From Sporohalobacter salinus (GTDB lineage: Bacteria; Bacillota; Halanaerobiia; Halobacteroidales; Acetohalobiaceae), in contig NZ_JAFBEG010000006.1 in NCBI RefSeq assembly GCF_016908635.1, forward strand, positions 1 to 64,000: DNA of 64,000 bases, written 5' to 3'. The first letter of the stretch is position 1. The number at the start of each line of letters is the position of its first letter. Under the pieces are notes generated by a model. It did no database searches, was not told where the DNA came from, and was given only the letters and a program-made list of their open reading frames with translations. Made by a program: the position numbers and the translations under genes. This document shows positions 38,029 to 59,763 of this stretch, one piece after another.

Positions 38029-38060
38029 AAAAAAATCGCCGCCCAGAAGGCGACGATTTA
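38029..38060 (-). terminator. Terminator of the tail/lysis operon
   Basis: AAATCGTCGCC / GGGCGGCGATTT hairpin on the minus strand followed by TTTTTATT, past the holin gene. Confidence 0.9.
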
Positions 38061-38116
38061 AAATCTATAATTATATTCAAGATATATACTTTTATCCTCT
38101 AAATTTATATCAATAT

Positions 38117-38434
38117 CTAATTCTGATTTTGTAGGTTTCCCACTTTAGCCTTCACTCTATTTTCTATCTTCTTCTTATCATATTTGTCTAAGTTGTATCC
38201 AGCTTCCTCTAACTCGCTAACTACCTTATTCATTATTTCATCTACCGTCTGTAAGCTATCAACTTCGGGAAATTCAACAACTGCAACATCAATTAGATCA
38301 TCTACCTCAGCTAAGATCGGGGCAGTTTTTTGGAAATAAGGATCTATTCCTGGTTTCAGCTTAGTAATCACTCCAATAGCAATTGATAAGAAACCTACAA
38401 CCTGTACAATAGTGTTAATGTCTAATCCTTTCAT
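38117..38434 (-). CDS. Probable phage holin (LLH-type)
   Basis: 105 aa: one transmembrane helix near the N-terminus (INTIVQVVGFLSIAIGVITKL) and a long amphipathic, charged C-terminal half (LAEVDDLIDVAVVEFPEVDSLQTVDEIMNKV...). This layout and its place beside the endolysin match Gram-positive phage holins of the LL-H class. Start ATG 38434 with AAGGAGATG; the longer frame lacks a ribosome site. Last gene of the operon. Confidence 0.68.
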   Translation of the reverse strand: MKGLDINTIVQVVGFLSIAIGVITKLKPGIDPYFQKTAPILAEVDDLIDVAVVEFPEVDSLQTVDEIMNKVVSELEEAGYNLDKYDKKKIENRVKAKVGNLQNQN

Positions 38435-38450
38435 ATTATCATCTCCTTGA

Positions 38451-38864
38451 TTAGTTTTGATTGTCCCAACGTGCTGGTGCTTCATCGCCAATTAACCCTC
38501 TAACATCAACATGAACAAAAGTATTATACTTTCCTATACCTAAGTTATCTTCACCAATATTCAACTTCTCAGATTGATTTTTAACTACCTCAGCTAATTT
38601 ATCAGCATCTAAGTCTAGATTACTAAAACTAATATCTGCCGCTGTACCTTTGCGGTGCTGACTATCATCTACACCGCCTACTTTGCGATTGTGTTCTTCT
38701 GTGCGGTAAGCTGAATTAATAATGAGCGCACTATCTAATTTGTTTCTAATTGCTTGTAGTAATTGCAATAACTTAGGGTGAACTTTGACTTCGTGCGTAT
38801 CTGGAGATTCAAATTCCTTCAATTTGAAGTTACTAGTTATGTTGAAATCGTTAATATCAGACAA
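38451..38864 (-). CDS. Peptidase M15 endolysin (TTG start)
   Basis: About 137-aa D-Ala-D-Ala-type peptidase: INSAYRTEEHNRKVGG, the Zn ligands in DSQHRKGTAADI, and FVHVDVRG with the last His ligand. It cuts peptidoglycan cross-links to release particles. The start is TTG at 38864 with AAAGGAGGTGG upstream; the longer frame to 38921 runs through the hairpin at 38887-38911 and is rejected. Confidence 0.88.
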   Translation of the reverse strand: MSDINDFNITSNFKLKEFESPDTHEVKVHPKLLQLLQAIRNKLDSALIINSAYRTEEHNRKVGGVDDSQHRKGTAADISFSNLDLDADKLAEVVKNQSEKLNIGEDNLGIGKYNTFVHVDVRGLIGDEAPARWDNQN

Positions 38865-38886
38865 TCTACCACCTCCTTTCTGCATT

Positions 38887-38911
38887 AAAAAAAGACACCC
38901 TACTGGGAGTC
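38887..38911 (-). terminator. Intra-operon terminator-like hairpin (YvrJ/endolysin)
   Basis: GACTCCC AGTA GGGTGTC (one mismatch) followed by seven T on the minus strand; begins at the YvrJ-like stop codon. Confidence 0.65.
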
Positions 38912-39102
38912 TAATTATCATTACTATTAAGTTGTTCGGATAGTTCAGCGCCGTCTACTTCGCTTAAGTTAGAAATTACTACTGCTAATTTGTTGATAGC
39001 TTCTGTATTGCTTTGTATGAGAGGCTCCAACCTCACAAGTACATACAATGCTACAAAAGCCGGAAAACCTACCTGTTGTATGAAACCAACTATATCTTTC
39101 AT
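38911..39102 (-). CDS. YvrJ-family small membrane protein, holin-like
   Basis: 63 aa: one hydrophobic segment (FIQQVGFPAFVALYVLVRLEPLI) with the VGFP...LYVLVRLE pattern of the YvrJ family, then a hydrophilic tail. In phages such proteins sit in the lysis module and are presumed holins or holin partners. Here it is between the fibre genes and the endolysin. Confidence 0.7.
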   Translation of the reverse strand: MKDIVGFIQQVGFPAFVALYVLVRLEPLIQSNTEAINKLAVVISNLSEVDGAELSEQLNSNDN

Positions 39103-39150: not shown

Positions 39151-39516
39151 CTATAAGTCAAAATCTTCTGCTGTTAAGCCCCATCCAGCTAGCTCAAGTA
39201 ATCTACTTGTACTTACTGTAACATTATCAATCGTATCCATTGTAGCGTCAGCTATTTCTTGTTCTATAGTGTTGCTAGCCTGTTTCATATTAATAATAAG
39301 ATTATCTACATCAGTTTTGGTCAATGAAGTTCCGGTTATGTCATCCTCTATAGTATCAACGCGTCCGCTATCTATGTTCCTTTGTTTGAAATCAGATACT
39401 CTAGCTAGGATTAACTTGCCTGCTAGGTCTCTAACTTGCTTCAGCTTCCTATCCTGCTCTGCTTCAAACTCTTCTTGGGCTATCTCAGTTGCTGTTTTCT
39501 GAGTTATAACTGCCAC
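39151..39516 (-). CDS. Tail-fibre-associated protein, unknown
   Basis: 121 aa, mostly helical and charged (EEFEAEQDRKLKQVRDLAGKLILARVSDFKQR). No known domain recognised. Position directly after the fibre genes and before the lysis module suggests a fibre chaperone or attachment factor (inference). GTG start with GGGAGG upstream. Confidence 0.6.
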   Translation of the reverse strand: MAVITQKTATEIAQEEFEAEQDRKLKQVRDLAGKLILARVSDFKQRNIDSGRVDTIEDDITGTSLTKTDVDNLIINMKQASNTIEQEIADATMDTIDNVTVSTSRLLELAGWGLTAEDFDL

Positions 39517-39822
39517 TTATACCACCTCCCAGTCTGTCACTACAGGATTACCTTCGCTATCTACAAACTCGTCAGGATTGCTGTAGTACCAATCTAGCTT
39601 AACTTTTAGCTCTCCGTTTTCGCGCTTAACTTCTCGAAAAGGATTAATGTCTAGTTTGTCTACTTGAACGTCAAATACGCCGTCTGTTGTTATCTGTGAG
39701 AAGTCAAACTCTTCTTCTGTTCCTCTGAATTCAACTAATATAACGTCAGTTCTGTCGTTAGGTTCAAAAGTGTAGAATAGTTGTTCTCGTGGATTGAATT
39801 GCGGGACTTTTTTTATTTGCAT
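39517..39822 (-). CDS. Small protein after the large fibre, unknown
   Basis: 101 aa, beta-rich (MQIKKVPQFNPREQLFYTFEPNDRTDVILVEFRG ... KVKLDWYYSNPDEFVD). ATG 39822 with GGAAGG; it overlaps the stop of the large fibre by one base, so translation is coupled. Possibly a fibre assembly protein or a small structural part. No homologue recognised. Confidence 0.58.
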   Translation of the reverse strand: MQIKKVPQFNPREQLFYTFEPNDRTDVILVEFRGTEEEFDFSQITTDGVFDVQVDKLDINPFREVKRENGELKVKLDWYYSNPDEFVDSEGNPVVTDWEVV

Positions 39823-42422
39823 TAGTACCACCTTCCTATTGCTTTAATTCGAGAGTTTAAGGTTTGAGTTGATAGCGAAGTGCTACCGTGATAATCATAG
39901 CTTATATTGACAGATGACGTTTCAGTTTCATCTTGCAACCCCCATACCATTCCAGCTGATACTACATTACTTGAAGTAGTAACATCTGTAATAACTTTGA
40001 CATCAAATAATTCAATCATTATTATAGGGTAATTCCATACATGATGCGTAGGCAAATCGGATGAAACATCACTTGTTATGGTAATTTCTTTGCTATAACA
40101 CTCTGCCCTACCATCAGGATATAAATACGCTACTCCATTCTCATTCTCAACCCTAACAACATTATCCATCTGCCATAAGCGGTCAAAAAGCTCACCATAG
40201 CTACCACTTGCCTTTGGGTCTGCTAGTTTACTATCGTGGTGCTGTTCGTAGCTGTCAAGTTCTGCTACAGGTGATAGGTTTCGAGTGTCAGTTAGGAATA
40301 GTGGTCTGTGAATTTCGAAAGCGTCGATCCATACCCATGTACCGGATGAACTAGCATTTTTAGTTCCTGTTACTCTTGCTTTGATAGTATGTTTTCCGAA
40401 TGATAGACTTGTATCTTCAAAAATTACTTGCTGATATAAAGTACTTAAATTATATAAGTCAACTGTTGTAACAACAGTTCCATCAATACTAATTTCAACT
40501 TCCCCATGTGAGTCTTTTAATCCAGAGATAAGTCTTATACCATCTCCGACGAATGTTTTTTCTACATAGTCATCAGTAGTATTACTTTCGTATCTATAAC
40601 CTGATGATGATGGCGTGTTTTCTTTTCCTATCCAACCACTACCAACGTACCTACAACCTTCATCACTTTCTACTTTAACCCAACCTTTCTCCTCACTACT
40701 ACTAGGTCGACTAGGTATCGTGCTCATTGTAGCAGGAGACGGCATTGGAATAGCTCGTGCTAGCTCTTGGCTATCCGTAGGTAAGCTAGGTGCTTCTGGA
40801 ATGTAGACGTCGAACGCGTCGATAGAAGTATAATAATTACTTGAATTGGAATTTTTTGTTCCTGTATTCCGAATTTTGACTTCATGGTATCCGAAATCAA
40901 GATTATTTGCTATTGTTGTTCTTGATTGAGAAATTAAATTTGGAGAATACATATCATAAGTTTGTTCTGTGCCACCATCTATTGAAACGCCTATAATTCC
41001 CCAATTATCACTTTTTTGTGCGATTAAATCTAATCTTGTCCCAATAAATCCAATATAAAATGTTTCATCTGATACATTTGTATTCATTCGTGTTGTTCCG
41101 GATTTATCCGATTTTCGATCAATTACCCATCCTGTAGTACCATCACCTGTAATTCCACTATTCCAAACATTAACCTTATCCTGCAACCACTCCGGAACTT
41201 CATCTACATACTCTCGACTAATCGTCCCATCTTCTTCAACACGGAAAGCCTTCTCTTCTGCTCCATCTGTACCTTCGACTATATTAACCACTCCGTCTTG
41301 GTCTACTGTAACTAAGTCTTGTCTACCGCTTATTGGGGTAGTGAATGACTGGTTATTTGCTGAAATATCTTCTTTTATACTGTCGATAAATGATGTTCCG
41401 CTGTCATTTCGTGACGTTCCTCCTATAGATTGAATTATTTCAAAATAATCAATGAAAAAATGGGAAGTTGCAGTACAAGTAATAGTAACTGTATGTTCTC
41501 CAAAAGATAATCCACTAGCTAATACAATTCTATCTATTGAACCTACTGTATCTGAATTTGTATGAGAATAACTTTTTGTAACCCCATTGTCTATTGAATA
41601 ATCTATACTACGTGTGTTCAGGTCTGCTAAATATAATATGGCTAATCCCGTACCTTTAAAGTTTAAAGTTATTTCCCCACCATTTAGTATAGTCAATCTT
41701 TTATTATCAATATAATAATCATTATTTTCAATATAAGCTCTATCTAATACTACATCACTAAATTTATCTTCTAATTCATTAAGATATACTTTTTCTACTC
41801 CACCGTGTACTTTAGCTCCTTCTAGAAAGTCGTTAAAGCCTGTTTTAAGTATAGAATTTTTCGCTTCTGCTTTACCGTCAAGCTCATCTAATGCTGCTTT
41901 AATATCAGTTGCACTTAGTGATGAGTCTGTATTGCTATATGCGATATTAACCGCTGATGAAAGCGCATCTAAGGCAGTTTTGATATTTGTTTCATTTAGG
42001 TTTCCATCCGTATTATCATAAGTTATATTAATTGCATTAGAAAGCAACTCTAATGCTGTATTAACATCACTAGCAGTAATATTAGCATTAGAATCATCAA
42101 AACTAATATCTACCGCATCTTTAAAAGTTGTTTGGGTCCATGATGAGCCGTCACTTCTATACCAGATACCTTCATCAGTAGCATAATAAAGATGATTATT
42201 GTTATCTGATGAAGCTGTTGGTCTATCTGCTTTCGTTCCAAATTGAACAGACTGATCTAAATCTTTCAATGCTTTTAACGTATAGTAGAAAAAAGCATCA
42301 AAGGTTCCAGCATCCGGATGTTCTCCTGCTTGAAAGTCTCGATTACCTGTATCTCGATATGTTCCTGATGATTCCCAAAGTTCTAATATATTATCTGTTC
42401 TAATTCCATTTTGAGTACTCAA
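39822..42422 (-). CDS. Large tail fibre / receptor-binding protein with repeated modules
   Basis: 866 aa. The N-terminal 100 residues probably attach to the baseplate. Residues 105-186 hold three 27-residue helical repeats (pattern I-x-Y/F-D/S-x-T/S ... A-L-x-x-L-x-x-A-V/I-N). Three copies of a beta-sandwich module follow at about 222-332, 416-543 and 577-706, each ending in FGxHTVxI ... TGTKNxxSSxxxxxIDAFEV-like strands. This module resembles carbohydrate-binding adhesin domains. Such fibres choose the target cell. Start TTG with AGGAGGG upstream. Cysteine-poor and Ser/Thr/Asp-rich. Confidence 0.85.
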   Translation of the reverse strand: MSTQNGIRTDNILELWESSGTYRDTGNRDFQAGEHPDAGTFDAFFYYTLKALKDLDQSVQFGTKADRPTASSDNNNHLYYATDEGIWYRSDGSSWTQTTFKDAVDISFDDSNANITASDVNTALELLSNAINITYDNTDGNLNETNIKTALDALSSAVNIAYSNTDSSLSATDIKAALDELDGKAEAKNSILKTGFNDFLEGAKVHGGVEKVYLNELEDKFSDVVLDRAYIENNDYYIDNKRLTILNGGEITLNFKGTGLAILYLADLNTRSIDYSIDNGVTKSYSHTNSDTVGSIDRIVLASGLSFGEHTVTITCTATSHFFIDYFEIIQSIGGTSRNDSGTSFIDSIKEDISANNQSFTTPISGRQDLVTVDQDGVVNIVEGTDGAEEKAFRVEEDGTISREYVDEVPEWLQDKVNVWNSGITGDGTTGWVIDRKSDKSGTTRMNTNVSDETFYIGFIGTRLDLIAQKSDNWGIIGVSIDGGTEQTYDMYSPNLISQSRTTIANNLDFGYHEVKIRNTGTKNSNSSNYYTSIDAFDVYIPEAPSLPTDSQELARAIPMPSPATMSTIPSRPSSSEEKGWVKVESDEGCRYVGSGWIGKENTPSSSGYRYESNTTDDYVEKTFVGDGIRLISGLKDSHGEVEISIDGTVVTTVDLYNLSTLYQQVIFEDTSLSFGKHTIKARVTGTKNASSSGTWVWIDAFEIHRPLFLTDTRNLSPVAELDSYEQHHDSKLADPKASGSYGELFDRLWQMDNVVRVENENGVAYLYPDGRAECYSKEITITSDVSSDLPTHHVWNYPIIMIELFDVKVITDVTTSSNVVSAGMVWGLQDETETSSVNISYDYHGSTSLSTQTLNSRIKAIGRWY

Positions 42423-42433: not shown

Positions 42434-43135
42434 CTATTTTAATGGTAATGGTGTCTGTGTCGGTGGATCATAATAAGCACCAAGTGTACCCTTTCCAAAG
42501 CCTGTATCCTGATCATATTCAGGATTATCATAAGTATCACTGAATTTAAATGTACCTTTCCAACCTAGCTGTATATCTACACCACAAGCTACTATCTCAT
42601 CAAGTAATTCTATAAACCACTGCCGTGAAAATCCTATACTATTCAAAGCATCTACCGGCATATAAATTAATATTCGGGCGCAATCTTGCAGTTTAGTACG
42701 CCAAGTTCCACCGTCGAATCCGAAGTTACTATTATACTTTGGCTTATCGTAGTCGTTACTAAAGCGAAAAGTACCCCAATGTGGTTCTTCGACTTTAATC
42801 TCATCTGCATTAGATTGGAAGATGGAAGATAGAATTTCAATTATTTCATTGATAGTACCAGATGATAAATTAATCTTCATTCTAGCTTTAAGCAGAATAC
42901 GATAAATATCATCGTCTAAATGCCCTCTAGGCTGACCTACATTCTCTCCAATTCTATCTAAGTGTTTACCATAAGTTTTATCAATAACACGCGTATCTTG
43001 AATTGAATTTATTTCATTTTTTATGTCGTCTAACTCATCACCATTTAGCTTAAGTAGTTTATAATTGTTACTATCTTCATCCTGTTTATAGTTGCTAGTC
43101 AGTCGCTTAACTAAATTATTGGTTGTCTCAGACAA
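42434..43135 (-). CDS. Baseplate-distal tail protein (tail protein I / DUF2313-DUF2612-like)
   Basis: 233 aa. The helical core DTRVIDKTYGKHLDRIGENVGQPRGHLDDDIYRILLKARMKINLSSGTINEIIEIL is typical of XkdU / tail-protein-I proteins linking baseplate to fibre. A 24-residue motif, GTFRFSNDYDKPKYN..GFDGGT, is repeated near the C-terminus as GTFKFSDTYDNPEYD..GFGKGT. Start TTG; its first bases overlap the baseplate J gene by 8. Confidence 0.78.
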   Translation of the reverse strand: MSETTNNLVKRLTSNYKQDEDSNNYKLLKLNGDELDDIKNEINSIQDTRVIDKTYGKHLDRIGENVGQPRGHLDDDIYRILLKARMKINLSSGTINEIIEILSSIFQSNADEIKVEEPHWGTFRFSNDYDKPKYNSNFGFDGGTWRTKLQDCARILIYMPVDALNSIGFSRQWFIELLDEIVACGVDIQLGWKGTFKFSDTYDNPEYDQDTGFGKGTLGAYYDPPTQTPLPLK

Positions 43136-44327
43136 TGCTAACCACCACCTTGTCTGTATCTATTCGCGCCACTTCCCTAGTATTAAATGTTAGGTTAGAA
43201 GTACCGCTTGGAGATGAAGTTTTACCAATTTTTATAGATGCATCCTGTACACCATCAACACTCATTACAGCATCTATAATCTTGTTATAGACTACATCAT
43301 CTCCTAGGCTAAGTCCAAGCAACTTCTCGCCGTCTGAATTAGTACCGCCAATATAATCAATTATCTCATTCTTAACTTGAATTTCACCATCACTAGGAAA
43401 TTCGGAATCATTAGTAGTTAAACTAACATAAACATATACCGGTACTTCGACAGCTCTAGAGAACTTAATTATCTTATCTTCTCCGGAATTATCTTGCAGG
43501 ATATAAGTCTCATTTGTGCCGTAAGCCTGTATACCCCCAGCTTTTTTATCCATAATAGCATTAGCTATATCTTTGCCTATGCCGCCTAACACAACAGTTT
43601 CGAATGATTTTGGCGGTATTCCATCTACTTCCTGGAATGTATCATTCTCTATTACGATAGCAGCACGAACTCCGTCGACTTCGAATACATTAGCTAAAAT
43701 CGCATTAGTAGTAGAACCACCAGCCTTTGAGACTGAATCAAAGTATCTATCTCTAAGTTCCATATCCGACTCTCTATCCTGACCGCCTTTTGTCTTTTTG
43801 TTGTTGGTTACTCTATCTAATCCAGGCAACGGATTAGTAATTGTTGTAATAGTATCAGCAGGCACGTTAGTATGTTGTCCTTTCTCTTTAGCTACAATAT
43901 CAAGCATTATGCTGCCGCTTGAATCAATTATACCTGCTTGAGTAGTCTTAAATTGGATCGAATCTTCAGTATCAGTCTCAATTAAGAAGCCAGTTGGGAT
44001 CTCTATGCCTTCATCACCAAAAAATATCACCTTTCCTTGTGCAGCTGTTGCTTCTTTCCGAGTAATACCTACTCTAACTACGATATTATCCAATTGCTGA
44101 CCGCTAGCTGAGAATACATAAGCTGAATTATACACATTTTCAGCTTCATTCCAAGCAATTGCTGTCTCAAAGGCGTTGAGCTTAATGAATTTCCCTAGCG
44201 GACTATCATCTTCGAGATTAACTTCATTACCAAAAAGATCTCTAGCCCTAGCCTGCATATCAGCTAATACCTCTGGGTATGTTTTCTTACAAAACCCTTG
44301 CTCAGTTACTCCGTATTCGACTACCAA
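43128..44327 (-). CDS. Baseplate J-like protein (TTG start)
   Basis: About 399 aa, gp47/XkdT family. The opening YPEVLADMQARARDLFGNEVNLEDDSPLGKFIKLNAFETAIAWNEAENVYNSA is typical, followed by GQQLDNIVVRVGITRKEATAAQGKV and the beta-rich middle (GGQDRESDMELRDRYFDSVSKAGGST). It forms part of the wedge/iris that opens on contact. The start is TTG 44327, 8 bases after AGGAGG; GTG 44336 lies too close to that site. Confidence 0.88.
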   Translation of the reverse strand: MVVEYGVTEQGFCKKTYPEVLADMQARARDLFGNEVNLEDDSPLGKFIKLNAFETAIAWNEAENVYNSAYVFSASGQQLDNIVVRVGITRKEATAAQGKVIFFGDEGIEIPTGFLIETDTEDSIQFKTTQAGIIDSSGSIMLDIVAKEKGQHTNVPADTITTITNPLPGLDRVTNNKKTKGGQDRESDMELRDRYFDSVSKAGGSTTNAILANVFEVDGVRAAIVIENDTFQEVDGIPPKSFETVVLGGIGKDIANAIMDKKAGGIQAYGTNETYILQDNSGEDKIIKFSRAVEVPVYVYVSLTTNDSEFPSDGEIQVKNEIIDYIGGTNSDGEKLLGLSLGDDVVYNKIIDAVMSVDGVQDASIKIGKTSSPSGTSNLTFNTREVARIDTDKVVVSIV

Positions 44328-44345
44328 AAATATCACCTCCTAAAT

Positions 44346-44369
44346 ACAAAAATCACCTTAAAGGTGATT
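44346..44369 (-). terminator. Intra-operon terminator-like hairpin
   Basis: AATCACC TTTAA GGTGATT then TTTG on the minus strand, overlapping the stop codon of the gp25-like gene. Confidence 0.55.
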
Positions 44370-44730
44370 ATATTGCGTTATCTATTGTTTGTTGAAAGTA
44401 CCGACCATTTTCTAATATACCTTCCAGTTTAATTTCTAGCTCTCTGTTATCCTTATCAAAGTCTAATTCTACTGAATCTATACTTTCGACTGCATCATCT
44501 GTCTCTATAGTTTTAATAATCTCTTGTTTAATTTCTTCGACAGTACCCTGCTTACCAAGTAGATCAAACCAAGGAATACCAAAATTCAAATTTAAAAACC
44601 ATTCTTCTTCACGAGTAGCTAAAGTCAGTTTATTCCTTTGCCTTACTTCTTCATCTCCCTCGATAATTTTCAAACTATAAAGATTATTAAATTCTATATC
44701 GCCATTATCATTAAGATATAATGTTTTCAA
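44368..44730 (-). CDS. gp25-like baseplate wedge protein (XkdS/DUF2634-type)
   Basis: 120 aa. LYSLKIIEGDEEVRQRNKLTLATREEEWFLNLNFGIPWFDLLGKQGTVEEIKQEIIKTIETDD is the conserved wedge pattern, with the EEW..N...G.PW segment. Acts as wedge core with baseplate J. Start TTG with GGGGTG upstream. Confidence 0.85.
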   Translation of the reverse strand: MKTLYLNDNGDIEFNNLYSLKIIEGDEEVRQRNKLTLATREEEWFLNLNFGIPWFDLLGKQGTVEEIKQEIIKTIETDDAVESIDSVELDFDKDNRELEIKLEGILENGRYFQQTIDNAI

Positions 44731-44743: not shown

Positions 44744-45226
44744 TTATATGTCCTGTTTAAGTCTGCTTATAACTTCTTGCCCTACTTCAGAGATGACTTC
44801 TTGCAGTCTATTTTGAATAGTATCTGCAGCCGATCTATCGTAAGTTACAAAATTGACTTGAGAGACATGTCTATTACTGCCGTTGCTTTCAAGATAAGTT
44901 ATATTTTCACTATAAGAAAGAACTCCTAAGATGTTTTGTGGCGCACTGTCATCTTCTGATTGTACTGTAATTGTGTTTTCATCGCTGTCCTCCGGCTGCA
45001 TATCCCAACTAAGCGTAATTGATTCGGTAGTTCCTGGCTCAAACTCTGCTGTTTCAGTCGAAGGATACAAAGTTACCGAGTCAACCACTACATTATCGAA
45101 ATCTAACAGTTCAATAACTACATCTTGCTGAGCAGTATCATAATTATTAGTAACATCTACATCAACGGTTAATCCTTCGCCTTCTAAGACTATCTTATTT
45201 ATGCTCGTTATTGTTACAGTTATCAT
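44744..45226 (-). CDS. Baseplate-region protein with Ig-like (CARDB-type) domain
   Basis: 160 aa. Residues 1-90 look like an all-beta CARDB/Ig-like domain (LEGEGLTVDVDVTNNYDTAQQDVVIELLDFDNVVVDSVTLYP ... TESITLSWDM). The last 60 are mixed and end in a helix (ADTIQNRLQEVISEVGQEVISRLKQDI). Lies between spike and wedge genes, so a structural baseplate role is likely but the exact part is not known. Confidence 0.6.
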   Translation of the reverse strand: MITVTITSINKIVLEGEGLTVDVDVTNNYDTAQQDVVIELLDFDNVVVDSVTLYPSTETAEFEPGTTESITLSWDMQPEDSDENTITVQSEDDSAPQNILGVLSYSENITYLESNGSNRHVSQVNFVTYDRSAADTIQNRLQEVISEVGQEVISRLKQDI

Positions 45227-45236: not shown

Positions 45237-45914
45237 CTATCCTGACGTTGACCTTCCACTACCAGCTACTATTTGACCTGAATGAGCTCCGGCAGAAGAT
45301 CCACCGCTTACATAAGTTACAATAGAATCTCCTACCCGTGCGATCGGTGGACCACCACTTGCTAGATCCACGTCTCCATTAACGGTAGTTTTTGGTGCAT
45401 TAACTGTCACATCTGAAGTGGAATTAACAGTAGTTTCTCCGTTAGTTTCAATTAATAAGTCGCCACCTTCTTTCATCACTATTCTGCTGTCGGCTTTTCT
45501 GTTCTCTAGTAATAGATCAGAAGTATAGTTACTATTCAAGTCTGGTTCCTGTTCAGTTTTAAGTCCCTGCATCACTATAGCATCATCTAAACTGTGCCGC
45601 CTTTCTAAGTCCGGTGACTCCGGTTCTCCGGTAATCAAAAGTTTATCTAATGCTTTCTGACTAAATACTACATTAACTACATCATCTTTTTGGTACGGTG
45701 GTCTAATAATGAATGGCCCAGCATCAAAATAACTTACTGGACATTCTAGAATTGGCGGAATTACCACTTCCTCAGATTCATCTAATCCAGTCTTAAGCTC
45801 TCTTTTTGCTAACAATGTAACATCTGCCCGCATCTTCTCAGGATAATACTTTTCAATCTGAGCTGGAAGTGATACATTAATATCTCCTATTTCTTCTTCA
45901 AGTAATCCTTTCAC
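45237..45914 (-). CDS. Baseplate spike protein (Gp138-N/gpV-like)
   Basis: 225 aa. The N-terminal OB-like domain (LPAQIEKYYPEKMRADVTLLAKREL...VVIPPILECPVSYFDAGPFIIRPPYQKDDVVNVVFSQ) matches Gp138/baseplate assembly V proteins. A repetitive stretch follows (GGDLLIETNGETTVNSTSDVTVNAPKTTVNGDVDLA) that would form the beta-helix needle, then GGPPIARVGDSI and a Gly/Ser-rich tail. It punctures the target envelope. GTG start; no strong ribosome site, probably coupled to the hub gene. Confidence 0.85.
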   Translation of the reverse strand: MKGLLEEEIGDINVSLPAQIEKYYPEKMRADVTLLAKRELKTGLDESEEVVIPPILECPVSYFDAGPFIIRPPYQKDDVVNVVFSQKALDKLLITGEPESPDLERRHSLDDAIVMQGLKTEQEPDLNSNYTSDLLLENRKADSRIVMKEGGDLLIETNGETTVNSTSDVTVNAPKTTVNGDVDLASGGPPIARVGDSIVTYVSGGSSAGAHSGQIVAGSGRSTSG

Positions 45915-47540: not shown

Positions 47541-47567
47541 TTCACCACCTACCTTCTACCTTAAATA

Positions 47568-47589
47568 GAAAAACCACCCGTTAAGGTGG
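47568..47589 (-). terminator. Minus-strand terminator, possible antisense RNA end
   Basis: CCACC TTAACG GGTGG then TTTTTC on the minus strand. It lies downstream of the minus promoter at 47929-47957 and could end a roughly 350-base RNA running antisense to the small peptide gene. Confidence 0.65.
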
Positions 47590-47602
47590 CGAAAGTTAAT
47601 TA

Positions 47603-47632
47603 TTGACTTATTTTCCAAACATATGTTACACT
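47603..47632 (+). promoter_or_regulatory. Promoter of the small hydrophobic peptide RNA
   Basis: TTGACT, 18-base spacer, TACACT with TG just upstream (TGTTACACT). Points right, against the surrounding tail genes. Confidence 0.7.
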
Positions 47633-47787: not shown

Positions 47788-47833
47788 AAAGGTAATGTCG
47801 ATTAGTCCACATAGCTTATAGGAGTTGCTCCGG

Positions 47834-51226: not shown

Positions 51227-51255
51227 AATAATCACTCCCTAGTTAATTTTTTATT

Positions 51256-52713: not shown

Positions 52714-52740
52714 AATAAAAATAACACCCTTTCAGGTGTT
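52714..52740 (-). terminator. Intra-operon hairpin before the sheath gene
   Basis: AACACCT GAAA GGGTGTT then ATTTTTA on the minus strand, between the tail terminator gene and the sheath gene. Confidence 0.65.
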
Positions 52741-53309
52741 TACACATCAATAGTTTCAATATGATCATTTTTGTCCAGTTTAATAACTTCAATTGTCTTC
52801 TCTCTAACTGAAATTTCCTCTTCTAATTCTACATCACAATCAAAACTAAATCTTTTTTGATAACTAGTTTCTACCATTGTAGTTCTATCATCTACTTCGG
52901 TTAATGTATTCTGTTTTACAACTCCATTATGGTTTTCTTTAAAGAACCTATTGCCTAACTTGTCTATCTCAAACCACTCTCTTAATTGTAAAGCAATCTT
53001 TCTGGCATCACCCTGAGAATCACTATAAACATTAACGCTAATCGTAATACGAGGCGCTAATAAATAATGATAGATCACATCATTTTTAAAATTATCATCT
53101 GTACTTGGTACAACTTCTCTTGACTCTACAGTTTGAGTATTAGTCTCGTAAGGTGTACTAACATTATACATAACTCTTTCAGATTCAAGTTGATCTTCTG
53201 GTATATCCTGATTAGCTAGCAATATCTGCGGCGCACTTCCTAATTTATCTGCTAAATAATTATTCCATGCATCATATAGCCCCTCCTCAATAGCAACTAT
53301 ATCTATCAC
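52740..53309 (-). CDS. Tail terminator / neck protein (GTG start)
   Basis: About 189 aa. VAIEEGLYDAWNNYLADKLG, PRITISVNVYSDSQGDARKIALQLREWFEID and SYQKRFSFDCDVELEEEI fit the phage neck/tail terminator family that caps the tube end. In tailocins this protein is kept to close the tail where the head would join. GTG 53309 is 7 bases after AGGAGG; the frame to 53339 runs over that site. Confidence 0.75.
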   Translation of the reverse strand: MIDIVAIEEGLYDAWNNYLADKLGSAPQILLANQDIPEDQLESERVMYNVSTPYETNTQTVESREVVPSTDDNFKNDVIYHYLLAPRITISVNVYSDSQGDARKIALQLREWFEIDKLGNRFFKENHNGVVKQNTLTEVDDRTTMVETSYQKRFSFDCDVELEEEISVREKTIEVIKLDKNDHIETIDV

Positions 53310-53383
53310 CCTATCACCTCCTGGATGATTATATAACATTACAAGATGCAGAGAAATTATTTCTCTGAATCTTGTTAGTTTTA

Positions 53384-54751
53384 TTAACCTATATTAATTT
53401 TAACCTCGTTAGGAGAGCCTATAGGAGCATTATTAACAGTTAATTCTAATAGATCATTACTTAACTTATAAGTATAATCAGTACCCGGAATCATTAACTC
53501 ATAACTACCTTCTTTATCGGTTTGAATATCTAAATTATCAAGTGAATCTCCATCATGTAATAGATATCCAAATCTAATACTTTCCTGACCTCCCATAGCA
53601 ACTAAATCATCTATCTCAGTATTTAAATTGTTAAATGTCCCTATGCTCATTCCATTACTTTCTATCTCGTTTATTTGAGTAGGAGTAGCATTGGCTCCAT
53701 CCACTAATCCAGCTAAAGAGGTAATTTCCTGCCAATTACCATCATAAGTATACCAATTAGCTCCACTGTTAGGACTTGCTATTATTACGGGATTACCGGT
53801 AGCAGTAAGAATAATTGAATTTGTTTTATTTATATTAGCAAAATCAATATCTCCATTTGCAAGTAATAATTGTGATTTTGGAGTTCCAATTAATTTTCCA
53901 TTTAAAGTTACTGCATCATCATCAACATAGGTCAGGATTTTATATTCACTAAATGCTTCTAAATCTACTGTTGATAAATATTCTACTCCATTAGAAGTAG
54001 CTTCAGTTTCTATTTCATCATTAGTCGCAGTTGATAATGTTAATTCTGTATCTTGCATAGAACTACCATCCCAATAATAAATACTGTCATTATTTTCAAA
54101 GAGATGATAAAATCTAAATAAATCAACTTCACCAGGAACATAAGTAGCACCATTGATTGTTCCATGATTATTATTCTCTGTAGCATCAATTAATGTAGAA
54201 GTATCAGAATTATCATCACATCTGTAATAAGCAACTAATCCTGTTTCCTGAGATGGAATCAGATATTTATTCATTTTATTCTGTATTTCTTCTTGAGTTA
54301 AAGCTCTATTCCAAATGCTAATCTCATCATAAATAGTATTTATTTGCATAATTGTATCCATACTACTTGTAATAGTAGCATCTACTCTTTTTATTTTATC
54401 AAATAATTTTCCATCAATATAAAGCTTTAAATATTCAAAATCATAAGTAAGAGTTACATAATGATTACCAGAATAATTACGTGTATCAATGTTTTTTGTC
54501 AATACATCTTTGTGAACTTGTGCATGTATTTCTGGATAACCTCGTTCAAATACTCCTCTAATACCTACTCCACGATAATAAGGATATTTTGTATTTTGAC
54601 CTAAATAATATTGATAATCTGAACCTGTTATATTATCAAAATTAATTAATAAATTATAAGTTATCCCTGAATAACCTGAATAATCAAAATTCTCGAAATT
54701 TATATAATCATCAGACTCTATTTTTAACGCATATGAATTATTAACTGCCAT
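53384..54751 (-). CDS. LamG-domain fibre protein
   Basis: 455 aa. Residues 1-165 form a LamG/concanavalin-like jelly roll (YALKIESDDYINFENFDYSGYSGITYNLLINFDN ... LKLYIDGKLFD ... DEISIWNRALTQEEI), followed by AYYRCDDNSDTSTLIDATENNNHGTINGATY, a second LamG-like signature, and a long beta-rich, Asn/Thr-rich part. Likely carbohydrate-binding adhesin on the particle. It lies where capsid genes would be expected. Shares a one-base junction with the fibre gene upstream. Confidence 0.75.
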   Translation of the reverse strand: MAVNNSYALKIESDDYINFENFDYSGYSGITYNLLINFDNITGSDYQYYLGQNTKYPYYRGVGIRGVFERGYPEIHAQVHKDVLTKNIDTRNYSGNHYVTLTYDFEYLKLYIDGKLFDKIKRVDATITSSMDTIMQINTIYDEISIWNRALTQEEIQNKMNKYLIPSQETGLVAYYRCDDNSDTSTLIDATENNNHGTINGATYVPGEVDLFRFYHLFENNDSIYYWDGSSMQDTELTLSTATNDEIETEATSNGVEYLSTVDLEAFSEYKILTYVDDDAVTLNGKLIGTPKSQLLLANGDIDFANINKTNSIILTATGNPVIIASPNSGANWYTYDGNWQEITSLAGLVDGANATPTQINEIESNGMSIGTFNNLNTEIDDLVAMGGQESIRFGYLLHDGDSLDNLDIQTDKEGSYELMIPGTDYTYKLSNDLLELTVNNAPIGSPNEVKINIG

Positions 54752-55950
54752 TATTCAATCACCGCCCTATCTATACTTTGATATTCTGAAATGTCTATCA
54801 TATCGCTTATCCAAATCTGACCATTCGTACTTGTACCTTTATCATTCATATTTAAATTACTCTTCTTATCTAATTGTACTGTATCAGCTCCAAATTCAAT
54901 TAGATCATTATCATAATTAAAATCTGTACTATCGGAATCATCAAAGGTATTAACAGTAGTTACCGTATCACTCTGATCTGCTACAAATTTTTCCGCAGTT
55001 ACTACTACTTCTATGCCAGAATCAAGATCAATTTGAATTAAATCACCATCTTTTACTCCCTGTTTATATACACTTGAAGCATTTCCACTGGCAACAGTAG
55101 AACTTGAGATAGATTGATAGGAACTATCATTCCAGAAGTAAACTATCCCTGTATCCTCAGCTATATATAGCTTATTATTATCACCAGTTGTAGGAAAATT
55201 AGACTTATCTGAATATCTTTCTATCTTATCTACACCGGCAATTAATGATTCAATCTTATTACTTGAATAAGTTGTAGTACTACTAGCAGTAGTATCATCA
55301 ATATTAGCTCCAGCTTCGCTATTACTATCAACCTCTACTCCTTGATAAGTAAGATTACCATTAGTATCACCTAGAGCATTTAAAATTGTCTGATTAGAAT
55401 GAGTATGTGACTTATTCACTGAACTTAATATCTCTGATTTTGATTTGCCGGCTACACTCTCAACAGTAGGATTTAGAGCAGTACCGCCTAAATCTCCATT
55501 AAGTCTAATTGCTCCCTTAACTGTATCAGTAGCTGGATTAACAATATCGTAACTAGCTGCAAATATCCACTTATCTTTACTTCCAGAATAGATATAATAA
55601 CTACGACTATTATCATTATTTTCATCTGCAGTTACTATAGCTGTCCATCCATTATTACCGGATCCATCTGGAATTGCCTCCTGTAAGCTGGCATAATCAG
55701 CATATTCTCCTTGAAAAGTTAATTTCCCATTAACACTATCAATTATGGTCTTAATTTCATTAATAGCAGCAACTAAGTTAGATTTATCGGTAGTCTCTAA
55801 ATTAGTTAATAAACCTGTTATATTCTTTACAAAATCCTTCGTAGCTTGATCAGAAGTTGTACATCCATCTTCATTGGAAGGATAGATATTCTGCGTTATG
55901 AAAGTTTTTACGGATGAGTCTTTTCTGTCATTATCATTGATCTCATTCAT
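54751..55950 (-). CDS. Tail fibre protein
   Basis: About 399 aa, Ser/Thr/Asp/Asn-rich. NLETTDKSNLVAAINEIKTIIDSVNG and ATDTVKGAIRLNGDLGGTALNPTV are common fibre-shaft motifs; a YIAEDTGIVYFWNDSSYQ insert also occurs in fibres. First gene of the structural operon. ATG 55950 follows AAAGGAG. The C-terminus stops abruptly (EYQSIDRAVIE), and the next ORF may supply the tip. Confidence 0.78.
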   Translation of the reverse strand: MNEINDNDRKDSSVKTFITQNIYPSNEDGCTTSDQATKDFVKNITGLLTNLETTDKSNLVAAINEIKTIIDSVNGKLTFQGEYADYASLQEAIPDGSGNNGWTAIVTADENNDNSRSYYIYSGSKDKWIFAASYDIVNPATDTVKGAIRLNGDLGGTALNPTVESVAGKSKSEILSSVNKSHTHSNQTILNALGDTNGNLTYQGVEVDSNSEAGANIDDTTASSTTTYSSNKIESLIAGVDKIERYSDKSNFPTTGDNNKLYIAEDTGIVYFWNDSSYQSISSSTVASGNASSVYKQGVKDGDLIQIDLDSGIEVVVTAEKFVADQSDTVTTVNTFDDSDSTDFNYDNDLIEFGADTVQLDKKSNLNMNDKGTSTNGQIWISDMIDISEYQSIDRAVIE

Positions 55951-56044
55951 GATTTTCACTCCTTTATAAAATAGTTAATTTTAAAATCATCTGTTTTCCT
56001 ATGAGCCCTAAAAGCGAATTTTAATCCCTCCTTTATTTAGTAAA

Positions 56045-56068
56045 ATAAAAAACACCCTCTCGGGTGTT
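56045..56068 (-). terminator. Terminator between regulatory and structural operons
   Basis: AACACCC GAGA GGGTGTT then TTTTATTTT on the minus strand, past the ArpU-like gene. Reading from the early promoter would stop here unless anti-terminated. Confidence 0.82.
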
Positions 56069-56212
56069 TAATTACTCTTTTTGTAACTTTTTTTATTTTA
56101 AATCATTAAATATATGTGGCTGAGTCCCGCTTTTGATACTTACTTCTCATTATATATATTAACATAGATATAGAGAAAATGTATCAAGCCTTTTACATAT
56201 AAATTGCATATT

Positions 56213-56659
56213 TTATACATATCCCAGTATTCTCGCTATTTTAGCAATAGCTTCATCTTTCACATCATAATATTTCTGTCTGCTATATCCAAAATCAAGG
56301 TCAGAGTATATTTCTACATCACTTATATTTCTACCAGTTATGTATTTTCTCTTAATAACATATTCCTCTAAAGAATCCAAACCATTCAATGCTATATCTA
56401 TCATGTTAACTATATCAGATTTTTCTCTAAATTCTTTAGCCTCATCACTCTCAAGCCTATCTATTACTTTCTCAAATGTAGAATCAAATATGTCATTAGT
56501 CTTAGATGAACCTCCAGGAGAACAACTATAAGCAGATGTCTCCAATTTATTATCCAGCTTATATTTAAGTATTTCTATCCTCTGCTTATACTCTTGATAA
56601 TTCAATAAGTGATTTACTACTTTGCTATACCAATCAGATTTTCTTTTTGTATTTGCCAT
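56213..56659 (-). CDS. ArpU/RinA-like late transcription regulator
   Basis: About 148 aa. The C-terminal third (GLDSLEEYVIKRKYITGRNISDVEIYSDLDFGYSRQKYYDVKDEAIAKIARILG) is the sigma-region-4-like helix-turn-helix of ArpU-family phage regulators. The N-terminal part is helical (WYSKVVNHLLNYQEYKQRIEILKYKLDN). Such proteins switch on packaging/structural genes; here it sits just before the tail operon and probably activates it. Overlaps the zinc-ribbon gene by one base. Confidence 0.82.
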   Translation of the reverse strand: MANTKRKSDWYSKVVNHLLNYQEYKQRIEILKYKLDNKLETSAYSCSPGGSSKTNDIFDSTFEKVIDRLESDEAKEFREKSDIVNMIDIALNGLDSLEEYVIKRKYITGRNISDVEIYSDLDFGYSRQKYYDVKDEAIAKIARILGYV

Positions 56660-56910
56660 TATCCACATACCCCCGTAGTATTATTCATGATATTTAATGT
56701 GTCTTGATGCTTATAATTATATTCCCGCTCTACTAAACGGAAAATTTCATCTAGATGTTTCTCTTTTTTGCATTTAATACACCAACACCGGTTACGATTA
56801 ACTTCTATTATCATTTGACGTTGACCGCAGAAAGGACAAACTATCTTAATTTCTACATTCATACGTATATCTTGAAGTCTACATATTTGCTTAATTATTT
56901 TCATGCTCAC
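56659..56910 (-). CDS. Small zinc-ribbon protein
   Basis: About 83 aa with CPFCGQRQ ... CWCIKCK, a four-cysteine zinc ribbon after a basic N-terminal helix. The GTG at 56910, 6 bases after GGAGGTG, is the likeliest start. Part of the early operon between DnaC and ArpU; role unknown, perhaps nucleic-acid binding. Confidence 0.65.
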   Translation of the reverse strand: MSMKIIKQICRLQDIRMNVEIKIVCPFCGQRQMIIEVNRNRCWCIKCKKEKHLDEIFRLVEREYNYKHQDTLNIMNNTTGVCG

Positions 56911-56966
56911 TATTATCACCTCCAATAATCAACTCTAATCAGTTATTTTTGTTTTTTTCTGATCAA

Positions 56967-57821
56967 CTAGCCCATCAAAAGTTCTTCGAGTAATTCATCA
57001 TTCTCCTGCTCAGATAAGTTCTCTCTGACACTCTCTTCCGGAGCATGAACAGGTATAGCCATTTTTTTAATTCTGTCTTTGATTCTAAAATTGTAAGGTA
57101 ACTCTTCAATTTTGCAATTGCTACTGAAAATAGTCACTACCAAATTATTAAGACGATGATTGAGAATATCAAAAAGATGATCATTAGTATCTGATTTGAT
57201 TGACTGTTGCCCCATATCATCCAAAATTAATACTTCAACCTTTTTAGCCGCATCCATTAGTTCATGAGTAGAAACTTCGGAATTACAGCTATAAGTAGAA
57301 CGAATTGCATTAAGTAAATCTCCGACTGTAGCAAATTTAACCTTTGCTTTATGCTGATGTATTAACTCATTTCCAATTGCTGATATCAACATTGTCTTAC
57401 CAGATCCAGCAGTATCTGAGTAAAAGTATAAACCTTTCTTTTTATTTTTCATTTCTTTAAACTTAGCCACATATTTCTTAGCAGCCTCTTTACATACTGA
57501 GGCAGACTTCCTTGAATTTGACTGCTTATAATGATTATTATCAACTACGAAATCATCTATCATTGTCTCTTGAAACTCTTCTAGAATAGTAGCAAATTCT
57601 AATTTCTTATTAATCACTCTCTCTTCCCGACATTCACATTCAATAGCTACTTTCCGCCCATTCTGCTCTATAATCCGAAACCCACTCCCGTTACATTGAT
57701 CATAAGGACAATTATCCTTCTTTGAATCCCATGAGTTCGAAGGCTTTTTCTTGAAGTCTTGCCCCTTCATCTTTGGTGCCTTTTTTATTATTTCGTTGAT
57801 TCTTTCCTTTATTTTGTCCAC
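56967..57821 (-). CDS. DnaC/IstB-like helicase loader ATPase
   Basis: 284 aa. An N-terminal zinc-binding-like stretch (CPYDQCNGSGFRIIEQNGRKVAIECECRE), then an AAA+ domain with Walker A SDTAGSGKTML and Walker B VLILDDMGQQ, sensor-like TIFSSNCKIEELPYNFRIKDRI. Loads replicative helicase at the origin chosen by RepO. Start GTG 57821 with GGGAGG; overlaps repO by 110 bases. Confidence 0.88.
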   Translation of the reverse strand: MDKIKERINEIIKKAPKMKGQDFKKKPSNSWDSKKDNCPYDQCNGSGFRIIEQNGRKVAIECECREERVINKKLEFATILEEFQETMIDDFVVDNNHYKQSNSRKSASVCKEAAKKYVAKFKEMKNKKKGLYFYSDTAGSGKTMLISAIGNELIHQHKAKVKFATVGDLLNAIRSTYSCNSEVSTHELMDAAKKVEVLILDDMGQQSIKSDTNDHLFDILNHRLNNLVVTIFSSNCKIEELPYNFRIKDRIKKMAIPVHAPEESVRENLSEQENDELLEELLMG

Positions 57822-58626
57822 CTTTATTACCTCCCTTTAATTCATCTTTAGCCTGGTCTATAAAACATTGAATAAAACGCCAACTTCCAATATCTACACC
57901 GTTCTTTGGATCTCCTCGTTTAAAATTCTTCTTCTTTTTCTCTTGAGCTACAGCTAAATCAATTGCTTTCTTAAGAGCCTTTTTCCCGTGCTTTTTTACG
58001 TCAGCTCTGATTAAACTCTCATAAGCTAACTGATTAGTAATTATTTTCTCTCGAGCATAATTAAGAATTTCTTCAACATCTGATACTGATTCGTTTTCCT
58101 GCCTATTATGTAAATTGATATTTATAACGTCTTTATTACGTACATTAGATTTTTTATTATTCTTAACGTTTTCTTTAATTCTTTCTTTAGCCCTCTGGCT
58201 AACTGTAGTATCATCAGGACTTGAAGTCTGTTCAGGGGTTGTATATTTGTACAACCCTTGAGTTTTGTTCTTCCTTAATCCTTGTGTATCTATACAACCC
58301 TTATGCCACTGTTCAACTCTTGTATTAAATGTATAGCTAGAAGTCTTTCCTGCTTCATGACTAGTTCGAAAAATCACCTGTTTATTAACCAACTTCTTTA
58401 ATTGCTTGGAAACATATGACTTAGAAGAATTAGTAGCTTGAGCAAATTCTTTAAGACTTATTTCATCTTCTTTCTTACCCCAGCCATAAGTACGTCTAAA
58501 TAAGAACATACATAATCCTTTTTGAACTCCTGTTAATTTAGCCATAGCTAAAGATTCTAATATTAAATTTGAAATCTTAGTATAACCATCTTCTATATTA
58601 GCGTTCAAGTCATTATCTTTAACCAA
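57712..58626 (-). CDS. Phage replication initiator (RepO-like, winged helix)
   Basis: 304 aa. The N-terminal DNA-binding domain (DGYTKISNLILESLAMAKLTGVQKGLCMFLFRRTYGWGKKEDEISLKEFAQATNSSKSYVSKQLKKL) is the Phage_rep_O type. The middle is long and basic; the C-terminal part (RGDPKNGVDIGSWRFIQCFIDQAKDEL) is DnaD-like. First gene of the leftward early operon. Start TTG with AGAGGTG upstream. Its presence shows descent from a replicating phage. Confidence 0.85.
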   Translation of the reverse strand: MVKDNDLNANIEDGYTKISNLILESLAMAKLTGVQKGLCMFLFRRTYGWGKKEDEISLKEFAQATNSSKSYVSKQLKKLVNKQVIFRTSHEAGKTSSYTFNTRVEQWHKGCIDTQGLRKNKTQGLYKYTTPEQTSSPDDTTVSQRAKERIKENVKNNKKSNVRNKDVININLHNRQENESVSDVEEILNYAREKIITNQLAYESLIRADVKKHGKKALKKAIDLAVAQEKKKKNFKRGDPKNGVDIGSWRFIQCFIDQAKDELKGGNKGGQNKGKNQRNNKKGTKDEGARLQEKAFELMGFKEG

Positions 58627-58861
58627 TTATCTCACCTCTTTAAGTAATCAATAGCTGATATAAGTTATTTAAATAGTCATTTTTCTTCTTTAATTGTTTT
58701 TTAATATTGTTTTGTGAGCATTATATCCAAAAAAATATTTCTTATAGCTAACAGTTGAAATTTTTATTCTTTCCACTACTAAGTTATCATCTCCAATCTG
58801 GGACGTAGTAATTAAATTACTTTTTTTAGTTTAGATAATGATATTATACCCATAGCTCCAT
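58627..58861 (-). other. Untranslated leader of the early operon
   Basis: About 235 bases between the leftward promoter and repO. It holds a 28-codon open frame (GTG start) without a convincing ribosome site; I see no other gene or clear RNA fold. Confidence 0.45.
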
Positions 58862-58979
58862 TCACTTAATGTGAGCAGTTCTTGTTACATATTATAATCA
58901 CAAAACGTGAGTTTGTCAAGGCTCTTACGATAAAATATCTCTTTTTGTGAGTTTTATTGTTATTACTCACTATATGTGA
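58862..58979. promoter_or_regulatory. Operator cluster, four TCAC-N5-GTGA sites
   Basis: Three perfect inverted repeats, TCACTTAATGTGA (58862-58874), TCACAAAACGTGA (58898-58910) and TCACTATATGTGA (58967-58979), and one imperfect, TCTCTTTTTGTGA (58938-58950). The second lies in the spacer of the leftward promoter and the fourth in the spacer of the repressor promoter. Most likely bound by the XRE repressor encoded at 59016. Confidence 0.88.
58891..58919 (-). promoter_or_regulatory. Leftward early promoter, perfect consensus
   Basis: TTGACA, 17-base spacer, TATAAT on the minus strand. An operator fills most of the spacer, so bound repressor would block RNA polymerase directly. Drives repO-dnaC-zinc ribbon-arpU. 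Confidence 0.93.
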
Positions 58980-58985
58980 TATTTT
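58957..58985 (+). promoter_or_regulatory. Repressor promoter
   Basis: TTGTTA, 17-base spacer, TATTTT, 30 bases before the repressor ATG. The operator in the spacer suggests autorepression. Confidence 0.72.
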
Positions 58986-59015
58986 ATTAATAGAGTATCA
59001 TTAAGGTGGGATAAA

Positions 59016-59429
59016 ATGAAAAAAGAAAGAATTAAAAAATTACGCAAAGAAAAAAATATAAGTCAAAGAAAATTAGCTAAAATACTTGGACTATCTCCCA
59101 GCACTATAGCAATGTATGAAACTGAAAAACGCAAACCGGATTCGGAGACATTACAAAAAATAGCTGACTTCTTTGATGTATCTGTAGATTACCTGCTTGG
59201 ACGCACTGATCAACGTCAATCAAATAATGAAAATAAAAAAGCCGATAAAATTAAACAAGCCCTTTCTGATGATCCAGAACTTATTGAGTTTTGGGAACAG
59301 TTATCTACCCGAGAAGATCTGAAACTGATGTTTAAGCAAACCAAAGACCTTAGCCCAGAATCAATTCACCGCATTATAGAAATAGTGAAAATTATTGAAG
59401 ATGAAGAGCGTGAGAGACATGGCGGATAA
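59016..59429 (+). CDS. Cro/CI-type (XRE) repressor, ImmR-like
   Basis: 137 aa. An N-terminal helix-turn-helix (RIKKLRKEKNISQRKLAKILGLSPSTIAMYETEKRKPDSETLQKIADFFDVSVDYLLG) and a C-terminal helical part without a LexA-type self-cleaving Ser/Lys site. It is paired with a metallopeptidase, the ImmR/ImmA arrangement. Divergent from the early operon across the operator cluster. AAGGTGGG before the ATG. Should hold the tail locus silent. Confidence 0.92.
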   Translation: MKKERIKKLRKEKNISQRKLAKILGLSPSTIAMYETEKRKPDSETLQKIADFFDVSVDYLLGRTDQRQSNNENKKADKIKQALSDDPELIEFWEQLSTREDLKLMFKQTKDLSPESIHRIIEIVKIIEDEERERHGG

Positions 59430-59763
59430 AGAAAAAATTAGACGCCAAGTACTTAACGCTCTTAATGATACTTATATAAATTTCCAAGAATGGGCTAAGG
59501 AACATAATATCTATCATCAGTTAGCTAAACTTCCTAAGGAAGTCTGGGGCTTTGTGTATCAGTCTCAATATTGTAATTACTTTGTAATAATTAATAAGAA
59601 TCTAGGATATGAAATGCAAAGGGAAGTATTTATGCATGAAGTAGAACATATCCTCTATCATTTTCCAGAACATAACTACATAATCGGATTGGATATGCAT
59701 CATACTTCCTTAGAAGATGATGCTGATGACTTTGCTCTTGAAATGATGGCTAATATTAAGTAG
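59419..59763 (+). CDS. ImmA/IrrE-type metallopeptidase (anti-repressor)
   Basis: About 114 aa with the zinc motif HEVEH in MHEVEHILYHFPEHNY and a downstream acidic stretch (SLEDDADDFALEMMA) holding the third ligand. ImmA proteins cut the XRE repressor encoded beside them, relieving repression after DNA damage or another signal. It overlaps the repressor gene by about 11 bases. Start not certain; ATG 59419 and ATG 59401 are both possible. Confidence 0.88.
   Translation: MADKEKIRRQVLNALNDTYINFQEWAKEHNIYHQLAKLPKEVWGFVYQSQYCNYFVIINKNLGYEMQREVFMHEVEHILYHFPEHNYIIGLDMHHTSLEDDADDFALEMMANIK

Follow-up and report, generated by a model that had tools for sequence, protein, structure and literature searches.

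A headless contractile-tail locus in Sporohalobacter salinus as a candidate R-type tailocin of the DUF3383-sheath lineage

Does a contractile phage tail that is encoded without a head represent a tailocin, or is it what remains of a prophage that recently lost its head genes? This question is raised by a locus on contig C6 of Sporohalobacter salinus (NZ_JAFBEG010000006.1; 155,837 bp, in a draft genome of 2.68 Mb). We analyzed bases 1-64,000 of this contig, hereafter called the window, in which the contractile-tail locus spans positions 38,033-59,763 with its tail genes reading leftward. The locus is probably an R-type tailocin that was domesticated, within the class Halanaerobiia, from a myophage of the Pam3/KPP10/B054 type. 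A first-pass annotation had already proposed an R-type tailocin here, and the proposal gains support from an intact contractile tail, lysis genes, a repressor switch with an operator-like cluster, the lack of head, neck, and integrase genes at the locus, and tail proteins that show no relaxed evolution.

Profile searches identified a complete contractile tail set (sheath, tube, tape measure, baseplate, spike, and fibre; Table 1). The genes are arranged in the order tail terminator, sheath, tube, chaperone, tape measure, Dit-like protein, plug, hub, spike, gp25/sheath initiator, baseplate J, baseplate I, and an 866-residue fibre, which is followed by two small proteins, a holin-like protein, an M15 endolysin, a 124-residue conserved protein, and a strong terminator. 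To the right of the tail genes lie RepO, a DnaC-like protein, an 88-residue zinc-ribbon-like protein, and an ArpU-like protein, with the Xre and ImmA-like genes divergent; RepO, the DnaC-like helicase loader, and the ArpU-like regulator are additions to the earlier gene list. All open reading frames of the locus (38,117-59,763) are uninterrupted, which, together with the profile matches, agrees with the earlier description of the tail, endolysin, and switch genes as apparently intact. Within the lysis cassette, the endolysin was assigned by profile and the holin-like protein by position. The holins named in the first-pass annotation do correspond to small reading frames of the right size and position, but they match no family, and their assignment reflects size and context.

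The sheath belongs to the PF11863/phrog_205 family, whose solved relatives include those of Pam3 and phi92, and it is 60% identical to the sheath of the related genome G007, 48% identical to that of Halanaerobium saccharolyticum, and 33.5% identical to that of phage D6E. No Phage_sheath_1 domain (PF04984) was found in the genome, with a positive Bacillus subtilis control; the locus does not belong to the diffocin/PBSX sheath lineage defined by this domain. Its tail proteins are homologous to, and encoded in the same order as, those of myophages and prophages with a DUF3383 sheath (G007, H. saccharolyticum, D6E, Listeria B054, Pam3, and KPP10). As in tailed phages, the G007 and H. saccharolyticum prophages encode a complete head and neck module, which separates their early genes from the tail terminator and which the window lacks.

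Relatives of the sheath were gathered from related genomes (six besides the window's own), named genomes, and IMG/VR, and profiles for head, neck, and terminase proteins were grown from the relatives' families and run on all loci, with positive controls down to 1e-204. These profiles gave zero matches in the 64-kb window. The locus comparison comprised 70 loci whose available sequence extends 3 kb or more beyond the sheath on its upstream side, including the window and some copies of one and the same phage. Head or neck genes were present in 68 of the 70, and only the window and a metagenomic contig, G199, lacked them. In G007 and in G045, which is from the same class as the host and whose sheath contig matches NZ_SNWX01000006.1 of H. 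saccharolyticum, the interval from the early genes to the tail terminator carries the genes for terminase, portal, protease, a head morphogenesis protein, the major head protein, and neck proteins. In the window, this slot (53,384-55,959) is occupied by two intact fibre-like genes, for proteins of 402 and 455 residues, and terminator-like hairpins lie on either side of the region (56,069-56,050 and 52,740-52,723). Viral-contig scans revealed no relatives of these two proteins, and their predicted structures are of low confidence (mean predicted local distance difference test scores of 31 and 37).

In the same profile search, neither of the two neck proteins through which tails of this type are attached to heads in the relatives was found in the window. 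The portal was in addition sought with an alignment search, which speaks only to the portal type accompanying this tail in the relatives; this type was matched in G007 and G045 and was absent here. Hence, the locus, which has no head and packaging module, is not a complete temperate phage, and the relative-trained profiles bear out the earlier claim that terminase, portal, protease, capsid, and head-tail adaptor genes are absent from it. The search for terminase, portal, and capsid families that the first-pass annotation had proposed thus returned no matches within the window. An integrase, also said to be absent, was not recognized among the reading frames searched, which did not include every small one. 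The repeat search gave no convincing attachment-site (att) repeats flanking the locus, and a search with the flanking genes found no empty site in relatives. Early whole-genome searches with PF03237, PF04466, phrog_146, and phrog_264 were empty as well, but these were too insensitive to be used as evidence because they missed a complete prophage, P2, in the same genome.

P2 is a siphovirus-like prophage at approximately 104.2-134.9 kb of C6, starting some 44 kb from the tail locus. It encodes terminase, portal (phrog_12), protease, a structural protein in capsid position (phrog_1623), and a neck protein, followed by a non-contractile tail with a phrog_290 tail protein, a 644-residue tape measure, a Sipho_tail Dit, and Gp37-like proteins. 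Because P2 carries a full head module, the genome is not head-free, and the description as headless holds for the locus but not for the genome as a whole. The flanks and relatives, which were to be checked for the same headless set or an adjacent head module, thus gave a mixed picture: relatives are nearly all headed, G199 is headless too, and no head module adjoins the tail genes, but head genes do occur on the same contig, in P2, with their own neck and a non-contractile tail.

Decay of the tail genes was assessed by a relative-rate count for 11 tail proteins, in which changes unique to the window and changes unique to G007 were counted against five outgroups (some 1,900-2,100 columns each). 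The window:G007 counts were 256:271, 231:313, 241:259, 306:257, and 252:338. Overall, tail-protein evolution is not accelerated in the headless lineage relative to the headed G007, which argues against decay. Unlike the other tail proteins, the tube and the tail terminator may have changed faster on the window lineage, with counts of 22:5, 19:4, 14:9, 23:8, and 26:8 for the tube (on a 90-residue fragment, since the G007 tube was divided between two separately retrieved stretches of sequence) and 29:19, 32:16, 31:17, 28:19, and 27:12 for the terminator. We regard this difference as a lead only because the outgroup comparisons are mutually non-independent and because the tube has 73% identity to its counterpart in L055, a relative that may or may not be headed. 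The tape measure is shorter (671 residues) than those of G007 (866 residues) and L055 (940 residues) but keeps both ends, and is therefore not a broken gene.

The gap between the tape measure and Dit genes (47,541-48,729) consists of an orphan reading frame of 184 residues (48,090-48,644) and approximately 550 noncoding bases. The stretch 47,560-48,090 is single copy in the genome, and no Rfam family scored above cut-off against it. It includes a hairpin (approximately 47,832-47,871) whose folding is far more favourable than that of shuffled sequences (z -7.2).

The repressor switch noticed in the first-pass annotation was recovered as an Xre/ImmA pair with an operator-like cluster. The Xre assignment is strong (PF01381, 2.3e-20), and the ImmA assignment combines weak profile scores with a HEVEH motif and a position behind xre. 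The palindrome TCACNNNNNGTGA (TCAC-N5-GTGA) occurs three times in the 64 kb, each time within the 389-base gap between repO and xre, against 0.41 copies expected in the whole window. These three palindromes are likely operators of Xre. The rest of contig C6 contains no copy of this motif, and repeated GTTAC/GTAAC motifs are found instead upstream of the xre gene of P2. The two elements share several proteins, with identities between the locus and P2 of 96% for ImmA, 80% for DnaC, 66% over 160 residues for RepO, 90% for the 63-residue holin-like protein, and 44% for the 124-residue protein. The last 62 residues of Xre are identical at 59 of 62 positions, and the DNA-binding half at 42 of 66. 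The near-identical ImmA and shared C-terminal half of Xre, combined with divergent DNA-binding halves, predict that one inducing protease activity would act on both repressors, each of which has its own operators. That this shared protease induces two distinct particles together is a tentative idea, to which we give a little less than even chances. The arrangement offers a concrete and testable instance in which two elements of prophage origin would answer a single alarm.

Other features were noted in and around P2. Its tail module includes a 424-residue WD40-repeat protein (L144:6035-7309), which is unusual for a phage tail gene, and a Cas1 gene (L145:12139-13131) adjoins the prophage. Contig C6 has four arrays resembling clustered regularly interspaced short palindromic repeats (81,353-81,718; 103,449-103,738; 135,120-135,666; and 140,353-140,811), and spacers on the contig gave no convincing match to the tail locus or to P2.

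By analogy with known tailocins, assembly, induction, lysis, and killing can be pictured as follows. Xre would hold the early and late genes off through the three palindromes until DNA damage activates ImmA, which would cleave Xre, after which the ArpU-like protein would switch on the late operon. Sheath and tube would polymerize from the baseplate until they match the tape measure, for a tail length estimated at about 100 nm (671 residues at 0.15 nm each), and the tail terminator would cap the structure. The holin-like protein and the M15 endolysin would then lyse the producer. A released particle would bind a related cell through the 866-residue fibre, and perhaps also through the two fibre-like proteins of the head slot, contract, and punch a lethal channel.

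The second headless element, G199 (IMGVR_UViG_3300037502_004045; L054, L115, and L116), is a 43.5-kb metagenomic fragment with a contractile tail of the same family, a lysis cassette, and a LexA-like repressor, in which no head gene was detected. On its opposite strand, genes for RepO-like, DnaC, and ArpU-like proteins lead directly into flexible-tail genes (phrog_290, a tape measure, and a 516-residue hub-like protein), again with no head genes. This layout resembles that of side-by-side R and F pyocins. The baseplate J proteins of G199 and the window cluster together (support 99/97), but the sheaths do not, and the elements are therefore mosaic. Unlike the window, G199 also has a ParM-like gene and the divergent flexible-tail module, its repressor is LexA-like, and its baseplate J/I genes are duplicated.

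Several observations weigh against a tailocin. The related-genome search found the locus in one genome, the sole same-genus genome (G001) having no sheath. RepO and DnaC, which a tailocin does not need, are retained (PBSX likewise keeps genes of this type), the gap behind the tape measure holds orphan and noncoding sequence, and P2 could in principle interact with the tail locus. The main rival is a recently beheaded defective prophage, in which recombination removed the head module or put other genes in its place and the remainder is intact by inertia, without a selected function. The retained replication genes, the tape measure-Dit gap, and the occurrence in one genome all fit such a history, as does the 79-87% DNA identity of the early and lysis genes to those of the resident P2, which implies that recombination here continues. 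Nevertheless, every tail reading frame is intact and the tail proteins show no excess of changes over a headed relative, although a very recent loss would look alike. In addition, two intact fibre-like genes, and not a scar, occupy the head slot, and a second headless element carries a related baseplate J. We therefore consider a beheaded prophage unlikely, if still a serious contender.

Far less probable is a divided system, in which tails from the locus would work with heads from another prophage. P2 has a complete head module, and its ImmA, Xre C-terminal half, DnaC, and holin-like protein are common to both elements, so that the two may be induced together. In its strongest form, the tail locus and P2 would be a functional pair with a shared ImmA sensor, P2 heads being fitted with the contractile tail to give one phage with two alternative tails at separate loci; we find this form just as improbable. 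Against a divided system speak the neck and the non-contractile tail that P2 supplies for itself, and the absence from the window of the two neck proteins that connect tails of this type to heads in the relatives. There is an equally slim chance that the locus encodes an extracellular contractile injection system, whose particles would act by delivering cargo proteins instead of killing by channel formation. A headless contractile tail and an unassigned 184-residue reading frame behind the tape measure would suit such a system, but the profile-searched reading frames include no AAA+ ATPase of the type found in these systems and no recognized cargo gene (the sole ATPase being the DnaC-type loader), the tail proteins belong to phage lineages (a DUF3383 sheath, and a plug and hub like those of Pam3), and both the repressor switch and the lysis genes are of the kind that prophages carry.

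Table 1. Features of the contractile-tail locus (positions in the window).
Feature	Position	Strand	Evidence or remark
Strong intrinsic terminator, left edge of locus	38033-38059	-	12-pair stem, then T run
124-residue conserved small lysis-region protein, holin-like by position	38117-38491	-	46% identical in L124, 44% in P2; no family match
Endolysin, M15 peptidase	38451-38921	-	PF08291 3.5e-22, phrog_894 8.7e-34
63-residue holin-like protein	38911-39102	-	90% identical in P2; size and position
121-residue small protein behind fibre	39151-39516	-	28-31% identical in headed relatives G007, L124
104-residue small protein behind fibre	39517-39831	-	Position; no family
Main tail fibre, 866 residues	39822-42422	-	phrog_15881 tail protein 1e-15, CE2_N 1.4e-9
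Baseplate I-like wedge protein (DUF2612)	42434-43135	-	phrog_1160 2.8e-40, PF11041 4.1e-9
Baseplate J-like wedge protein	43128-44336	-	PF04865 7.8e-31, phrog_6 1.3e-73
gp25/sheath initiator	44368-44730	-	PF10934 3.8e-8, phrog_120 3.5e-28
160-residue baseplate-region protein	44744-45226	-	52% identical in headed relative L050; no family
Central spike	45237-45914	-	PF18352 3.2e-14; 51-53% identical in G007, G045
Baseplate hub	45922-46716	-	phrog_196 8.9e-59; matches solved phage hubs including Pam3 gp19
Plug, Pam3 gp18-like	46706-47047	-	PF22479 1.4e-19
Dit-like protein	47028-47540	-	PF21821 2.1e-25
Tape measure, 671 residues	48730-50745	-	phrog_1533 3.4e-92
Tail assembly chaperone	50957-51235	-	phrog_1778 1.4e-15; 57% identical in G007
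Tail tube	51256-51651	-	phrog_280 3.3e-33, PF11681 7.6e-13
Contractile sheath, DUF3383 lineage, 341 residues	51668-52693	-	phrog_205 2.6e-58, PF11863 4.6e-16, Pam3 sheath 1.2e-7
Tail terminator	52740-53339	-	PF23961 1.1e-11, phrog_1232 2.5e-13
455-residue LamG/fibre-like protein, head-module position	53384-54751	-	phrog_15809 2.6e-21; Laminin_G_3 2.2e-4, below cut-off
402-residue fibre-like protein, head-module position	54751-55959	-	phrog_4757 8.4e-8, phrog_2952 minor tail 8.9e-6; weak tail-fibre matches
Terminator separating early and late genes	56050-56069	-	Hairpin
ArpU-like late regulator	56213-56668	-	phrog_36 8.6e-16, phrog_248 1.7e-15
88-residue zinc-ribbon-like early protein (p88)	56659-56925	-	37% identical in G007, there upstream of head module
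DnaC-like helicase loader	56967-57821	-	phrog_50 1.4e-46; 80% identical in P2
RepO-like replication initiator	57712-58626	-	PF04492 6.5e-25
Three operator-like palindromes TCACNNNNNGTGA	58862-58979 (at 58,862; 58,898; 58,967)	.	Motif count
Xre/CI-type repressor	59016-59429	+	PF01381 2.3e-20
ImmA/IrrE-type metallopeptidase (putative anti-repressor)	59395-59763	+	phrog_87 2.7e-6; PF06114 0.0013, below cut-off; HEVEH motif; 96% identical in P2

A 145-residue gene behind p88 in G007 is not an ArpU homologue according to BLASTP. Elsewhere in the window, there is a cobalamin riboswitch at 20094-20285 (102.9 bits) and a dispersed repeat at 60707-60813 of approximately 83-108 bases, with several more copies on the same contig that are 71-76% identical.

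Halanaerobiia are Bacillota with an outer membrane. The open-licence papers searched yielded no tailocin report for Halanaerobium or for a tailocin joined with a DUF3383 sheath, nor any for Halanaerobiia, in keeping with the earlier remark that a tailocin from this kind of host would be new. If the locus works as a tailocin, it would represent an independent domestication from the DUF3383-sheath, Pam3/KPP10-type myophage lineage, which to our knowledge is not known as a tailocin source.

PBSX has a repressor, an ImmA-type protease, and RepO/DnaC-like early genes. PBSX and the clostridial R-type tailocin prophages keep capsid and terminase genes (PMC10538166, PMC9406221), and R-type tailocin prophages of Gram-positive bacteria in general tend to keep capsid genes (PMC10538166), so that a headless one in Bacillota is uncommon. 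The locus has in common with PBSX and the clostridial prophages a repressor with an ImmA-type protease, RepO/DnaC-like genes, a contractile tail, and lysis genes, but it lacks capsid and terminase and has a sheath of a different family. A defective phage of the PBSX type, which keeps capsid and terminase and packages host DNA, was considered and rejected, as neither gene is present at the locus.

Diffocin is the recognized R-type bacteriocin cluster of clostridia, with a sheath of the Phage_sheath_1/XkdK lineage. In Clostridioides difficile, a member of the Bacillota, it is a cluster of approximately 20 kb that encodes a contractile tail, is SOS-inducible, and has been expressed in Bacillus subtilis (PMC4453579). 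The likeness, drawn on our side from genes, is that of a contractile-tail cluster in Bacillota; the window differs in its DUF3383/Pam3-lineage sheath, its Halanaerobiia host, the retained RepO and DnaC, and the fibre-like genes in head position. With the R-type pyocin of Pseudomonas aeruginosa, whose tail is of the phage P2-like lineage, the locus has in common a headless contractile tail, regulators, and lysis genes, but the pyocin is without RepO and DnaC and has different regulators. Monocin is a flexible tailocin. The gene content that the first-pass annotation ascribed to R pyocins, diffocin, and monocin is therefore that of the locus in outline, with the differences that its sheath lineage departs from that of PBSX, that its tail is contractile and not flexible as in monocin, and that it keeps its replication genes.

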